In this document: positions 58,911-64,000 of the stretch, piece after piece
Position numbering within the stretch: position 1 is the first letter of the stretch
How the letters are laid out: each line of letters begins with the position of its first letter
Origin: Rhizobium indicum
Lineage (GTDB): Bacteria; Pseudomonadota; Alphaproteobacteria; Rhizobiales; Rhizobiaceae
Assembly (NCBI RefSeq): GCF_005862305.2
Contig: NZ_CP054021.1
Location: forward strand, 4,071,501 to 4,135,500
Length of the DNA: 64,000 nt
Direction of reading: 5' to 3'
The notes under the pieces: model-generated
What the model saw: only the letters and a program-made list of their open reading frames with translations
The model's database searches: none
Told to the model about the DNA's origin: nothing
Made by a program: the position numbers and the translations under genes

Positions 58911-59387
58911 TCAGCCCCAGGAAACCTGGAGGATTTCGTAGGCCTTGGAGCCGCCCGGCGCATTGACCTCGATGGAATCTCCGACTTCCTTGCCGATCAG
59001 AGCACGGGCGATCGGCGAGGAGATGGAGATGCGGCCGGCCTTGACGTCGGCTTCCTGGTCGCCGACGATCTGGTAGGTCTTTTCTTCATCGGTGTCCTCG
59101 TCGATGAGTTTCACCTTGGCGCCGAACTTGATCTTGTCGCCCGACATCTTGGTGAGGTCGATGACCTCGGCGCGCGCCGTCAGGTCTTCCAGCTCGCTGA
59201 TGCGGCCTTCGTTGTGACTCTGGGCTTCCTTGGCGGCGTGGTATTCGGCGTTTTCGGAAAGGTCGCCATGGGCACGGGCTTCGGCGATCGCCTCGATGAT
59301 TCGAGGGCGCTCCTCCTGCTGACGCCAGCGCAGCTCTTCCTGCAGCTTGACGAAACCGCCCGGTGTCATCGGTACCTTTTCAACCAT
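58911..59387 (-). CDS. greA: transcription elongation factor GreA
   Basis: A 158-residue factor that rescues backtracked RNA polymerase by stimulating transcript cleavage. It has the N-terminal coiled coil ([37 protein letters not shown], with the tip acidic residues DLSENAEY) and the C-terminal FKBP-like domain ([20 protein letters not shown]). The ATG at 59387 gives [12 protein letters not shown], the usual start; the frame to 59435 is longer without support. 27 bases lie between its stop and the lpcC start, so the two can be co-transcribed. Confidence 0.96.
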
Positions 59388-59603
59388 TTTTCTGTCCTTC
59401 AATCCTCGTATCCGCACAATTAGCGGCGAACACAAAAGAAAACAGGTCCCGAAGGGGAGCTTCGGAACCGTGCCACAATCTTAGTCGGACGCTTATAGCA
59501 GATCGCCAAGGCCGATTTCCAGAAAATTCGCATAAAAGAAACGCGGCCCGCCCCGATATCAGGTGGTGCGACTTGAAAATGGGCAGAAATCGGATCGTCC
59601 CGA

Positions 59604-59634
59604 TTGACTCTGCATGCCGGAACATATAGTGAAC
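59604..59634 (+). promoter_or_regulatory. promoter with exact LexA (SOS) box, radical-SAM/UdgX operon
   Basis: GAAC (59620-59623), seven bases, GAAC (59631-59634): an exact match to the alphaproteobacterial LexA box GAAC-N7-GAAC established for Rhizobium. A candidate -35 TTGACT (59604-59609) and -10 TATAGT (59625-59630, spacer 15) overlap the box. The start codon is at 59641, so transcription would begin within a few bases of it. Confidence 0.72.
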
Positions 59635-59640
59635 ATACTA

Positions 59641-60873
59641 ATGAAGAAGTCGCTCACAGAACGCTTGGCCATCCTTTCCGATGCCGCGAAATATGATGCT
59701 TCCTGCGCTTCCAGTGGAACGGTGAAGCGTGATTCTCGGGCAAGCGGCGGGCTCGGTTCGACCGAGGGATCCGGCATCTGTCATGCCTATGCACCGGACG
59801 GGCGGTGCATTTCGCTTCTGAAAATACTGCTGACCAATTTCTGCATCTACGACTGCGCCTATTGCGTCAATCGCTCGTCGAGCAATGTCGAACGGGCGCG
59901 CTTCACGCCCGAAGAGGTCATCTGGCTGACGCTGGAATTCTACCGCCGCAACTATATCGAAGGCCTGTTCCTTTCCTCCGGCATTATTCGTTCGTCCGAT
60001 TACACGATGGAAGAGATGGTCCGCATCGTCCGCGAACTGCGCGTGACACATAATTTCCGCGGCTATATCCATCTGAAATCGATCCCCGAGGCGTCGCCGC
60101 GTCTGATTGAGGAAGCGGGGCTTCATGCAGACAGACTGTCGCTCAATATCGAGTTGCCGACGGATAACGGCATCACCCGCTTCGCGCCGGAAAAGAAGCC
60201 TGCCAATATCAGGCGATCGATGGGGGATCTGAGGTTGAAGATCGAGGCCGCCGGCGAACCGACGCTGCGCACGAAGAAGCGTCAGCGTTTCGTGCCGGCC
60301 GGCCAAAGCACACAGATGATCGTCGGCGCCGATGGCGCGAACGATGCGACCATCCTTGCGACCAGCGGCCGGCTTTACAGCAGCTACGGGCTGAAGCGCG
60401 TCTATTATTCCGCCTTCAGCCCGATTCCGGACTCGTCGAAAAACCTGCCGCTGATCAAGCCGCCGCTGATGCGCGAGCACCGGCTCTATCAGGCCGACTG
60501 GCTCTATCGATTCTACGGTTTCGGCATCGACGAGATCACCGCAAACCAGGCGGGCGGCATGCTCGATCTCAGCCTCGACCCCAAGCTTGCCTGGGCGCTC
60601 GCCAATCGGGCCGAATTTCCCGTCGATATTAACAAGGCCGAGCGTGAGCGGTTGCTGCGCGTGCCCGGTCTCGGCACCAAGACCGTCAAAGCGATCGTTT
60701 CGGCGCGGCGTTTTCGCCGGTTGCGGCTCGATGATCTCCAGCGGCTCGGCATTTCGATCAAGAAGGTTCAGTCTTTCATCTCGGCGGAAGGCTGGTCGCC
60801 GCGCCGATTGATCGAGCGCCCCGACCTTCGCGCCATGTTCGAACCGCAACCCGAACAATTGTCGTTGCTGTGA
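59641..60873 (+). CDS. DNA modification/repair radical-SAM protein (TIGR03916-type)
   Basis: A 410-residue protein of the putative DNA modification/repair radical SAM family that is found next to UdgX-type genes. The 4Fe-4S motif is C68-x3-C72-x2-C75 (NFCIYDCAYCVNR), followed by a TIM-barrel-type region (GLFLSSGIIRSSDYTMEEMV, LSLNIELPTD), and near the C terminus a helix-hairpin-helix (LRVPGLGTKTVKAIVSARRF) that would contact DNA. The chemistry is not known. I chose the ATG at 59641, giving MKKSLTERLAILSDAAKYDA as in relatives; an ATG at 59614 precedes the LexA box. It overlaps the next gene by one base. Confidence 0.9.
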   Translation: MKKSLTERLAILSDAAKYDASCASSGTVKRDSRASGGLGSTEGSGICHAYAPDGRCISLLKILLTNFCIYDCAYCVNRSSSNVERARFTPEEVIWLTLEFYRRNYIEGLFLSSGIIRSSDYTMEEMVRIVRELRVTHNFRGYIHLKSIPEASPRLIEEAGLHADRLSLNIELPTDNGITRFAPEKKPANIRRSMGDLRLKIEAAGEPTLRTKKRQRFVPAGQSTQMIVGADGANDATILATSGRLYSSYGLKRVYYSAFSPIPDSSKNLPLIKPPLMREHRLYQADWLYRFYGFGIDEITANQAGGMLDLSLDPKLAWALANRAEFPVDINKAERERLLRVPGLGTKTVKAIVSARRFRRLRLDDLQRLGISIKKVQSFISAEGWSPRRLIERPDLRAMFEPQPEQLSLL

Positions 60874-62327
60874 TGCGCCGGGTCGTGCTTGCAGGACGCG
60901 GGGAGCTTGCCGAATGGCGTGACGCCGCGCGCGCTTTCGCGGTCGCCGGCATCCTGCCGGAAGAGATCGATTGGCGCGAAAAAAGCGAGGAGGCGGACCT
61001 TGCGTTTCAACGCGACGCCATGCCGCCGGCGCCTATCATGGCACGCAAGCCGATGACGGTGCCGCCCGCCTTCATCGATCTCGCGGAGACAGTTCTCTGC
61101 CATTCCGACGCGGCGCGTTTTTCCCTGCTTTACCGTCTGCTCTGGCGGCTGCAACTGGACCGGCAACTGCTTGAAGTGGCTTCCGACGAGGACGTCGCCC
61201 GTGCCAGGCTGATGGCGAAAAACGTTCGGCGCGACGCGCACAAGATGACGGCCTTCGTTCGCTTCAAGGAGGTTGGTGCGGTGTCGGTGGGCCGTCGAAA
61301 ATTCCTCGCCTGGTTCGAGCCGGATCACCATATCGTCAGGCGCACAGCGCCCTTCTTTCAACGGCGCTTCACCGACATGGACTGGCTGATCGCGACGCCC
61401 AAGGGATCGGCCGCCTGGGACGGCGAGCGGCTGACGATGAGCGACGAACCGTGTGAAAAACCCAATCTCATCGATGCTACCGACGAACTTTGGCGCACCT
61501 ACTACGCCAGCATTTTCAATCCGGCGCGGTTGAAGCTGAAGGCGATGCAGGCGGAGATGCCGAAAAAATACTGGAAGAACCTGCCGGAAGCCGATCTCAT
61601 CCCTGGGCTGATCGCATCGGCGGAGAGCCAGGTGCGGGCCATGGCTGCACGGGAGGCGACCCAGTCGTTGCCCTTTCACGATCGCCTGCAGGAAGCCGCG
61701 CGCAGCATTCCGGCCGAGCCCGAAGCGCCGGCGGGCACGCTGGAAGCACTGCGCGCGGAAGCTGCCGCCTGCACCCGCTGTCCGCTTCATGCGAAGGCCA
61801 CGCAAACCGTATTCGGGGAGGGGCCACGCGATGCCGAGGTGATGTTCGTTGGCGAGCAGCCGGGCGACCAGGAGGATATATCAGGGCGCCCCTTCGTCGG
61901 TCCGGCCGGCAGGCTGCTGGATCAGGTGATCACTGAAGCGGGCATTGATCGCTCAACGCTTTACGTCACCAATGCCGTCAAGCATTTCAAATATGAGCCG
62001 CGCGGCAAGCGTCGCATCCATCAGAAGCCCAATATGGGCGAGGTGAAGCATTGCCGCTGGTGGCTCAATCTGGAGATGGCACTGATCAAGCCGAAGCTCA
62101 TCGTTGCGATGGGGGCGACGGCGCTCGCGGCGCTGACCGATACGAAACAGCGGCTTCAGGATGTCAGGGGGAAAGCGATCGCGATCGATGAGGAGCGAAC
62201 GCTCTTCGTGACGGTGCATCCATCCTATCTGCTGCGTATTCCCGATGAGCGGCTGAGAGCGGAGGAACTGGCACGATTTCGCGAAGATATGCTGATGGTT
62301 CAGCGCCTTATGGTGGCCGCTGCATAA
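60873..62327 (+). CDS. udgX: DUF4130-UdgX fusion: uracil-DNA crosslinking protein
   Basis: A 484-residue fusion. The N-terminal ~250 residues are DUF4130 ([33 protein letters not shown]), of unknown activity. The C-terminal part is a family 4-like UDG of the UdgX type: iron-sulfur Cys at C300/C303 (CTRCPLH), motif [10 protein letters not shown] (327-335), the UdgX-specific loop KRRIH at 379-383, and motif B HPSYLLR. In UdgX the His of this loop forms a covalent bond with the abasic site after uracil removal. The ATG at 60873 overlaps the radical-SAM stop (TGATG). Confidence 0.92.
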
Positions 62328-62404: not shown

Positions 62405-64000
62405 TCAGGCGAAATAGCTCTGCAGCGGCCGCACTTCCAGATTGCCGGCCTTCAGCGCCTTGATTGCCTGGGCGGCGGCTTCGGCGCCTGCCATCGTCGT
62501 GTAATAGGGCACCTTCTGCATCAGCGTCGCACGGCGCAGCGACTTGGAGTCGGAGATCGCCTTGTTGCCATCGGTGGTGTTGATGACGAGCTGGACCTGG
62601 CGGTTGCGGATCGCGTCCTCGATGTGCGGACGGCCTTCCAGCACCTTGTTGATCTTGGTGGCGGTGATACCGTTTTCGGCGAGGAAGCGGGCGGTGCCGC
62701 CGGTCGCCAGCACTTTGAAGCCCTGTTCGACGAGGATGCTGATCGCCGGCAGCACGCGCGGCTTGTCGGCGTCGCGGACGGAGACGAAGACCGTGCCGTC
62801 ACGCGGCAGCTCGACGCCGGCGCCGAGTTGCGACTTGGCGAAGGCCAGTGCAAAATCGGTATCGAGGCCGATGACTTCACCGGTCGAGCGCATTTCCGGG
62901 CCGAGCAGCGTGTCGACGCCGGGGAAACGGGCGAAGGGGAAGACGGCTTCCTTGACAGCGATGTGCTTCAGCTTGCGCGGATCGGGCTTTTCGCCGTAGG
63001 CGGCGAAGGTCGCATCGAGTTTTTCGCCGGCCATGACGCGGGCGGCGATCTTGGCGATCGGCGCGCCGATGGTCTTGGCGACGAAGGGCACGGTTCGCGA
63101 GGCGCGCGGATTGACTTCGAGAACGTAGACGGTGCCGTCCTTGATGGCGAACTGGACGTTCATCAGGCCGCCGACATTGAGCGCCTTGGCCATGGCTTTC
63201 GCCTGGCGTTCCAGCTCGTCGAGCATCTCGTTGGAGAGCGTGCGCGGCGGCAGCGAGCAGGCGCTGTCGCCGGAATGGATGCCGGCTTCCTCGATATGCT
63301 CCATGATGCCGGCGACATAGACGTCGGTGCCGTCCGAGAGGCAGTCGACGTCGACTTCGATGGCGTGGCTGAGATAGCTGTCGAAGAGCAGCGGGTTCTT
63401 GCCGAGCAGAGTGTTGATCTGGCCGGTCTTGTCGTTGGGATAGCGCTGCTTGATATCCTCAGGCACCAGTTCAGGCACGGTATCGAGCAGGTAGCTCTGC
63501 AGCTGGCCTTCCGAATGCAGGATCTGCATGGCGCGGCCGCCAAGCACGTAAGAGGGACGCACGACCAGCGGGAAGCCGATTTCGGTGGCGACCATGCGGG
63601 CCTGCTCGACCGAATAAGCAATGCCGTTGTTCGGCTGGTTGAGGTCGAGCTTCATCAGGAGCTTCTGGAAGCGGTCGCGGTCCTCGGCAAGGTCGATCAT
63701 ATCGGGCGCGGTGCCGAGGATCGGGATGCCGTTCTTTTCCAGCGCCTCGGCAAGCTTCAGCGGCGTCTGGCCGCCGAACTGGACGATGACGCCGACGACT
63801 TCACCTCTTTCCTGTTCTGCCCGCAGGATCTCGATCACGTCCTCGGCCGTCAGCGGCTCGAAATAGAGGCGGTCCGACGTGTCGTAGTCGGTCGAGACTG
63901 TTTCCGGGTTGCAGTTGATCATGATCGCCTCATAACCCGCATCCTTCAGCGCGAAGGCGGCGTGGCAGCAGCAATAGTCGAACTCGATGCCCTGGCCGAT
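62405..64000 (-). CDS. carB: carbamoyl-phosphate synthase large subunit, C-terminal part
   Basis: The gene continues past the right edge; about 531 codons of the 3' part are present. It covers the end of the CPSase connector with the conserved [18 protein letters not shown], the second ATP-grasp domain ([38 protein letters not shown]) and the MGS-like regulatory domain ([20 protein letters not shown]). It makes carbamoyl phosphate for pyrimidines and arginine. The ATG at 63922 is internal, since the frame stays open to 64000 with typical sequence ([20 protein letters not shown]). Confidence 0.95.

Follow-up and report, generated by a model that had tools for sequence, protein, structure and literature searches.

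An operon pairing COG1573 with COG4277 has been predicted to lie under LexA-type control in Bacteroidetes (Nucleic Acids Research 2021; PMC8565304); in excerpts, this paper describes it as a base excision repair system based on a uracil-DNA glycosylase (UDG) and cites reports of a LexA-linked operon for Verrucomicrobia and Alphaproteobacteria (Caulobacter). The operon of concern here lies in a 64,000-nt stretch of Rhizobium indicum DNA (contig NZ_CP054021.1, positions 4,071,501 to 4,135,500; hereafter the window) and comprises a gene for a radical S-adenosylmethionine (SAM) protein of the TIGR03916 family, followed by a gene fusing DUF4130 to UdgX, a UDG. We take COG4277 to be this TIGR03916 protein, and the two operons are probably the same, under LexA. 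SOS control of such operons is already in print and is not new. An earlier note on this DNA had offered SOS regulation and a leaderless start as the description of an uncharacterised system; the predicted regulation and the leaderless geometry both hold up in our comparison, the former as something already published. In contrast to the operon of PMC8565304, DUF4130 is the constant partner at the loci compared here, the UDG can be missing, and in Alphaproteobacteria the operator lies right next to the start codon. What we regard as new are two features of the radical-SAM protein sequences, more informative than those in the earlier note: six invariant cysteines, three of them outside the radical-SAM motif, and a C-terminal motif of the type that binds the beta sliding clamp. 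With a probability of about 0.68, we read the locus as encoding an SOS-induced, replisome-tethered radical-SAM/DUF4130 module for the processing of DNA lesions, to which UdgX is added as an optional trap for abasic sites.

Several other described systems resemble this locus in part. Both window proteins exceed curated cut-offs of the TIGR03916, TIGR03915 and TIGR03914 operon families (for the radical-SAM protein, 570.8 bits against 343.5; for the fusion protein, TIGR03915/DUF4130 and TIGR03914/UdgX), whose one-line descriptions mention no regulation, clamp motif or second cysteine site; the NCBI name of the first is "putative DNA modification/repair radical SAM protein". A 2013 paper in Biology Direct ties DUF4130 to SplB-like radical-SAM proteins and UDGs (PMC3765255, in excerpt). 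SplB, the spore photoproduct lyase, is likewise a radical-SAM enzyme with links to DNA repair and SOS (excerpts of PMC3765255 and PMC8565304), but its family is not among the profile matches of the operon proteins at E 0.001, and the window protein differs in having a helix-hairpin-helix (HHH)-like region, a second cysteine triad and a clamp motif (the last not checked in SplB). UdgX of Mycobacterium smegmatis shares the motifs GEQPG, KRRIH and HPS with the window domain, which scores 171.7 bits against solved chains such as 6iod; in the window, however, UdgX is fused to DUF4130, is encoded next to a radical-SAM gene within a LexA-type operon, and is only predicted to cross-link. UdgX has been proposed to protect abasic sites (PMC10359453), and in excerpts of that paper and of PMC10776899 the words SOS and radical are both absent. 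Finally, Pol II, Pol IV, Pol V, Hda and the Caulobacter MutS and MutL proteins resemble the radical-SAM protein in a C-terminal Q-phi-x-L-F/L (PMC11139829, in excerpt), yet none of these clamp-tethered proteins is a radical-SAM enzyme.

The LexA-type box at the start of the operon

Among 120 related loci, the window's own being one of them, 116 carry an exact GAAC-N7-GAAC box where the radical-SAM gene begins, scored over a region that reaches from 100 nt ahead of the match start to 10 nt past it. None of 480 control windows taken at these loci has an exact box, and 24 of them hold a site with one mismatch. By set, the counts are 39/40 and 77/80 loci, the 77 consisting of 71 forward and 6 reverse boxes; the two sets may share species, and the 151 radical-SAM proteins used below are all distinct. 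The 80 named loci are the best 80 of 592 confirmed matches, with a resulting bias toward close relatives, and their remaining three include two with a one-mismatch box and one Xanthomonas locus (L140) without a box. At the family level, 31 of the 61 genomes drawn have the radical-SAM gene, and all 30 loci analysed carry the exact box, beginning 19-47 nt before the match start; the 31st genome (G043, 76% complete) has a truncated match and stands outside the 30. At the class level there were 17 matches, and 11 of 192 genomes, this one included, lie over the TIGR03916 cut-off; the box count there covers ten loci, the window's own and a truncated one (L055) being left out, and the box is present in nine of the ten, L045 being the sole exception. 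The truncated locus itself (genome G212) has kept the gene start and the exact box ahead of a shortened radical-SAM gene that matches profile positions 270-399 only, and is apparently a decaying copy.

Sequence identity is 0.57 in the N7 core of the box and 0.26, the chance value, in flanks 20-60 nt upstream of it. UDG genes that do not adjoin a radical-SAM gene yielded no exact box in nine cases at distances of up to 250 nt from the match start, a point that for these genes differs from the gene start; the nine are UDG-only relatives (51-58% identity) from six family genomes, four of them without a radical-SAM gene, plus three more distant UDG genes.

Taken alone, an exact GAAC-N7-GAAC box is unremarkable and supports no claim: the 7.53-Mb genome holds 223, compared with 154 for a backward control. 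The window box stands out from chance by belonging to a class with an A/T-rich core (AWAW), of which the genome has 13 sites and the backward control none, and by its conservation in place. Besides the radical-SAM operon, sites of this class lie near ssb/uvrA, an SRAP gene, three imuA-like genes (ImuA matches of 55.7-65.2 bits, under the cut-off of 150), an Ogt-like plus a LigT-like gene, a DUF5680 gene and a ParB-like gene, among others, the remaining four being without a name. The lexA gene of this genome has an exact box 48 nt ahead of the family match.

Outside the class the motif switches. In the phylum, 96 of the 397 genomes drawn exceed the TIGR03916 cut-off; the outside-class set comprises all 32 such loci, taken to be from beta- and gammaproteobacteria, with phylum loci L156-L184 standing outside the analysis. 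An exact CTGT-N8-ACAG occurs within 200 nt of the chosen start at 22 of the 32, a one-mismatch form at five more, and neither at the other five; the same 22 are also positive in the 110-nt window, against 0/191 in the control. The motif switch, the in-place conservation and the controls bear directly on the notion that chance alone explains the box and that LexA does not regulate the operon. The window count could be cited for it, with four exact boxes against a shuffle mean of 1.87 (at least four in 17 of 100 shuffles), but 116 of 120 loci as against 0 of 480 control windows lead us to reject it as scarcely credible. LexA control, which the earlier note had proposed, is strongly supported by this upstream comparison of orthologous operons, by the core class and by the switch, and we consider it very nearly certain on these comparative grounds.

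Some observations nonetheless weigh against a uniform picture. The recA gene of this genome has one-mismatch boxes only. Three genomes of one genus (G336, G502 and G585) keep LexA, and the repeat ahead of their lexA genes (TTAGTAGTAATACTACTAA), which we take to be the Xanthomonad LexA box, is not seen at the operon. Genome G554 lacks a box at the operon, its LexA-like match being under the cut-off, and L140, noted above, is boxless as well. Two further boxless genomes speak for regulation by LexA: one of the class (G226) and one of the five outside-class cases with neither motif form (G319, which matches Psychrobacter) returned C-terminal-half matches only in a LexA search, as would be expected if LexA itself were missing. 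Regulation by the local LexA is thus the rule, with real exceptions.

As a separate observation, an inverted repeat GTCTCA-N5-TGAGAC lies upstream of the radical-SAM gene at L189 (750-766), L140 (2956-2972) and L210, and in degenerate form at L201. These loci are without a known LexA box, and the repeat is perhaps the operator of another regulator; it was not found near lexA in L221-L223.

Direct reading of the sequence confirms the earlier note's account of a box that overlies a TATAGT hexamer and ends 6 nt before the radical-SAM ATG, and no Shine-Dalgarno-like word was found upstream of this gene, again as the note had it. Where the box encloses the -10 hexamer and 6 nt separate that hexamer from the ATG, the transcript start would fall on the A of the ATG; the predicted distance from start to ATG is about 4 nt at the window operon and about 0 nt where the ATG is 2 nt past the box. 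This geometry is common among relatives, at least as read from their sequences: 106 of 110 forward-box loci have an in-frame ATG after the box, at 2 nt in 46/106 and at no more than 7 nt in 80/106. A TTG lies 13-19 nt before the box-core hexamer at 60 of these 110 alphaproteobacterial loci, compared with 7-12 of 110 in shifted windows, the commonest spacing being 17 nt (33 occurrences). In some relatives with 13-15 nt between box and ATG, a TAT-like -10 is visible by eye after the box, about 6 nt before the ATG. Leaderless transcripts are established in Sinorhizobium meliloti, for which 171 have been mapped, every one with an AUG start (PMC3616915, in excerpt). On the other side of the balance, the window's TTGACT-TATAGT spacer of 15 nt is short, a standard sigma-70 scan (16-18 nt spacers) of positions 59400-59720 found no promoter, and Shine-Dalgarno-like words occur in 8 of 40 loci, so that the leaderless state is not universal. 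The arrangement is well supported by its geometry, and a near-leaderless mRNA appears highly probable.

Cysteines and C-terminal tail of the radical-SAM protein

Cysteine occurs exactly six times in the window's radical-SAM protein, and each of these positions holds cysteine in 151 of 151 sequences (a set without L110, whose frame is broken) and in 119-121 of the 121 sequences of an alignment with homologues of the G319 protein. Three of them (C68, C72 and C75) form the CxxxCxxC motif of the SAM cluster at residues 68-75 (CIYDCAYC); C22, C47 and C56 precede it. Because this second triad is invariant outside the SAM motif, we infer an additional Fe-S or zinc site, which on present comparisons is likely. 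LipA and TYW1 offer parallels, in that both carry N-terminal three-cysteine clusters. As to domains, PF04055 (radical SAM) is barely over its Pfam cut-off, and an HHH-like region is indicated at about residues 313-368, with a match to the ComEA HHH at E 0.0088.

Certain points count against these assignments. The second metal site is argued from conservation alone, the HHH_3 and HHH_5 matches fall barely under their Pfam cut-offs, and searches for a solved structure came up empty both for the complete radical-SAM protein and for DUF4130. An attempt to derive the radical-SAM fold from structure profiles gave weak matches only, to a HydE/HydG core and to the HHH of ComEA/RuvA, and was set aside. 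A phage or defence origin of the operon was likewise rejected, since matches in PHROGs were weak (radical-SAM and UDG/polymerase families; best E 1.6e-6) and PADLOC models matched neither operon protein at E 0.01.

The last five residues of the protein, QLSLL (406-410), fit the motif by which proteins bind the beta clamp, defined as Q-phi-x-[L/M]-[F/L] or its hexamer form and situated at the C-terminus in Pol II, Pol IV and, as one of its motifs, Pol III alpha (PMC11139829, in excerpt). The strict pentamer is present in the tail of 118 of the 151 radical-SAM proteins, compared with 3 of 1337 other mechanically called open reading frames (ORFs) of at least 150 aa from the same loci; the hexamer form alone is found in 3 of 151, and the DUF4130 proteins have the strict motif in 0 of 110. 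More generally the tail reads Q-x-x-L, and the residue that comes next is in most cases F, L, W or I. Of 120 homologues of the G319 protein, a set in which the names Psychrobacter, Moraxella, Ornithobacterium and Chryseobacterium appear, 116 carry the strict form. A search of the literature, in a single wording, found no combination of a clamp-binding motif with radical SAM.

A hydrophobic terminus of this kind might instead be a degradation signal or a folding element. Its position at the extreme C-terminus, with no following residue in 110 of 151 proteins, would suit that explanation, as would the tryptophan at tail position 5 in 14 of 151, which also weighs against clamp binding, given that, in one motif tested, binding is weakened by a Trp at the final position (PMC11139829, in excerpt). 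Set against this are the glutamine and leucine, which all 151 proteins share after a linker that varies, the presence elsewhere of up to six residues after the motif, a frequency of the strict form far over background, and its recurrence in homologues with Bacteroidota names. We therefore hold a degradation signal or folding element to be quite unlikely, and docking of the radical-SAM protein on the clamp through its C-terminus to be the distinctly more probable function suggested by the tail.

DUF4130 as constant partner and the place of UdgX

Downstream of the radical-SAM gene, DUF4130 is present at 110 of the 112 loci examined (78/80 named and 32/32 outside the class), and at the two named loci with no partner in view the contigs end 123 and 697 nt past the radical-SAM match. 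The 80 named loci comprise 73 DUF4130-UDG fusions, five with DUF4130 alone and the two ended by their contigs. The UDG domain, by comparison, is absent at 5 of the 78 named loci with DUF4130 and at 20 of the 32 outside the class (present at 12), as scored per locus by BLAST with the window's UDG domain, which very distant UDGs could escape. Since DUF4130 is constant and the UDG domain sometimes missing, the core of the system is taken to be radical SAM plus DUF4130. Twelve positions of DUF4130 are identical in 111 of 111 sequences (H123, R130, F131, P150, F162, R165, I173, W207, Y210, R219, W234 and E239, in 484-aa numbering). Profiles of the Protein Data Bank gave tryptophan 2,3-dioxygenase as the best match to its fold, at E 0.5, and this was not used. 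The full-length DUF4130-UdgX fusion occurs in 30 genomes of the family, each of which also has the radical-SAM gene; against strict coupling, one of them (G022, locus L061) has its fusion gene about 490 kb from the radical-SAM gene and without an exact LexA box.

The UdgX motifs are intact in the window protein. GEQPG (motif A), the R-loop KRRIH with the nucleophilic histidine, and HPS (motif B), as defined in excerpts of PMC10359453, are found at 328, 380 and 450 of the window protein (residues counted from the GTG start). The nucleophile is histidine in 84 of 86 aligned proteins, window included; of 85 cases with the UDG, KRRIH is exact in 30, GEQPG is found in 81 and an HPS-type motif in 70, and among the 120 closest fusions KRRIH is found in 117. 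On the contrary side, L125 has proline at the nucleophile and L208 is unaligned there. Another contig of the genome (G000:C3:450251-450406) carries a stretch of 52 residues with 48% identity to the UdgX domain, perhaps a remnant copy.

The earlier note had suggested that the radical-SAM enzyme modifies or resolves either a DNA lesion or the UdgX adduct; on the second account the enzyme would exist to resolve or process the covalent UdgX-DNA adduct. The shared operon, the tight coupling in this lineage and the intact UdgX motifs of the window protein speak for it. As a core role it is unsupported and was rejected, considering that DUF4130 remains at the 5 of 78 and 20 of 32 loci where the UDG is absent, that four of the five DUF4130-only genomes have no TIGR03914 match over the cut-off (weaker UDG matches occur, and genome completeness was not established), and that UDG-only relatives occur in four family genomes that lack the radical-SAM gene. 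We judge adduct resolution as the core role improbable.

Proposed action, layout and further observations

In the lesion-processing module that we favor, LexA on its box would cover the -10 element and the transcript start; DNA damage would lead to LexA cleavage and to an mRNA beginning at or a few bases from the AUG, translated without a Shine-Dalgarno sequence. The radical-SAM protein is predicted to bind DNA via its HHH-like region and to carry two metal centres, a SAM-cleaving 4Fe-4S cluster on C68/C72/C75 and a second on C22/C47/C56, while QLSLL would dock it on the beta sliding clamp, so that it would work with DUF4130 on a DNA lesion at replication forks. The chemistry would most likely be a radical reaction on a damaged nucleotide. 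UdgX, the optional module, which in this lineage forms one protein with DUF4130, is predicted to remain covalently bound to the abasic site after excising uracil. Judged by parts, that the system acts on DNA at all seems somewhat likely, and a DNA lesion is our best guess at what the radical-SAM enzyme acts on; the most specific version, put forward only tentatively, is that of a clamp-borne enzyme with two metal sites that acts together with DUF4130 in the SOS response to repair or rewrite a base of the DNA at the fork.

A different role for the pair would be to modify undamaged DNA, the nucleotide pool or a fork protein, with SOS control serving tolerance or mutagenesis rather than repair. 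The genes with weak ImuA matches that share the box class would accord with this, and other radical-SAM enzymes can use a second three-cysteine site for insertion chemistry. The HHH-like region and the frequent UDG fusion point instead to DNA damage, and we regard a role in tolerance or mutagenesis as unlikely. TIGR03916 genes are common in the phylum, as counted above, and their activity is given only as "putative" in family names. For the lesion-processing module, clamp placement, SOS control and the constancy of DUF4130 would focus experiments on the replication fork in the period following damage, and the second cysteine triad and the five C-terminal residues would offer clean targets for mutation; if correct, this reading would extend radical-SAM DNA repair past the spore photoproduct lyase into the replisome's own tool kit.

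Table 1. Positions in the window of the features of the radical-SAM/DUF4130-UdgX operon
Feature	Coordinates	Strand	Basis and remarks
Candidate -35 element TTGACT	59604..59609	+	Direct sequence reading; 15 nt upstream of TATAGT
LexA box GAAC-N7-GAAC (GAACATATAGTGAAC)	59620..59634	+	Direct reading and conservation in orthologous loci
Candidate -10 element TATAGT, within LexA box	59625..59630	+	Direct reading; predicted start site at most about 4 nt from ATG
Spacer ATACTA, six bases, box end to ATG	59635..59640	+	Direct reading
Radical-SAM gene, 410 aa, TIGR03916 rSAM_link_UDG	59641..60873	+	Profile match; ATG 59641-59643, TGA 60871-60873
Codons for QLSLL, residues 406-410, putative C-terminal clamp-binding motif	60856..60870	+	Codon reading; tail conservation
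DUF4130-UdgX fusion gene, 484 aa, TIGR03915/DUF4130 then UdgX	60873..62327	+	Profile matches; ATG 60873-60875
DUF4130 (PF13566) match within fusion gene	61116..61589	+	Pfam match; constant partner domain

The one-base overlap of stop and start codons reported in the earlier note is confirmed (Table 1). An alternative in-frame GTG for the fusion gene exists at 60870, and the ATG at 60873 is preferred because it gives the length of 484 aa that most of the closest homologues listed share. An upstream in-frame ATG at 59614 was considered as the radical-SAM start and is disfavored, most of the 120 homologues listed being 410 aa, a length that fits 59641. The best-named homologues among those listed are from Rhizobium leguminosarum. 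The operon is flanked upstream by a divergent gene that we take to be GreA-like (58911-59435, minus strand) and downstream by a convergent one, presumably related to the carbamoyl-phosphate synthase large subunit (62405-64000, minus strand).

The genome-wide search for boxes of the LexA class also brought to light other possible members of the SOS regulon. One box (L036, G000:C1 near 2369985) lies between the gene with an Ogt-like methyltransferase domain and the gene for a LigT-like RNA phosphoesterase; another (L034, G000:C1 near 874237) stands 49 nt ahead of the ATG of the DUF5680 gene, which has a Shine-Dalgarno-like AGAGGAG and is a possible SOS gene. The three genes with weak ImuA matches (L038, L040 and L042) each follow a box of this class within the one genome, one of them on the second contig, C2.

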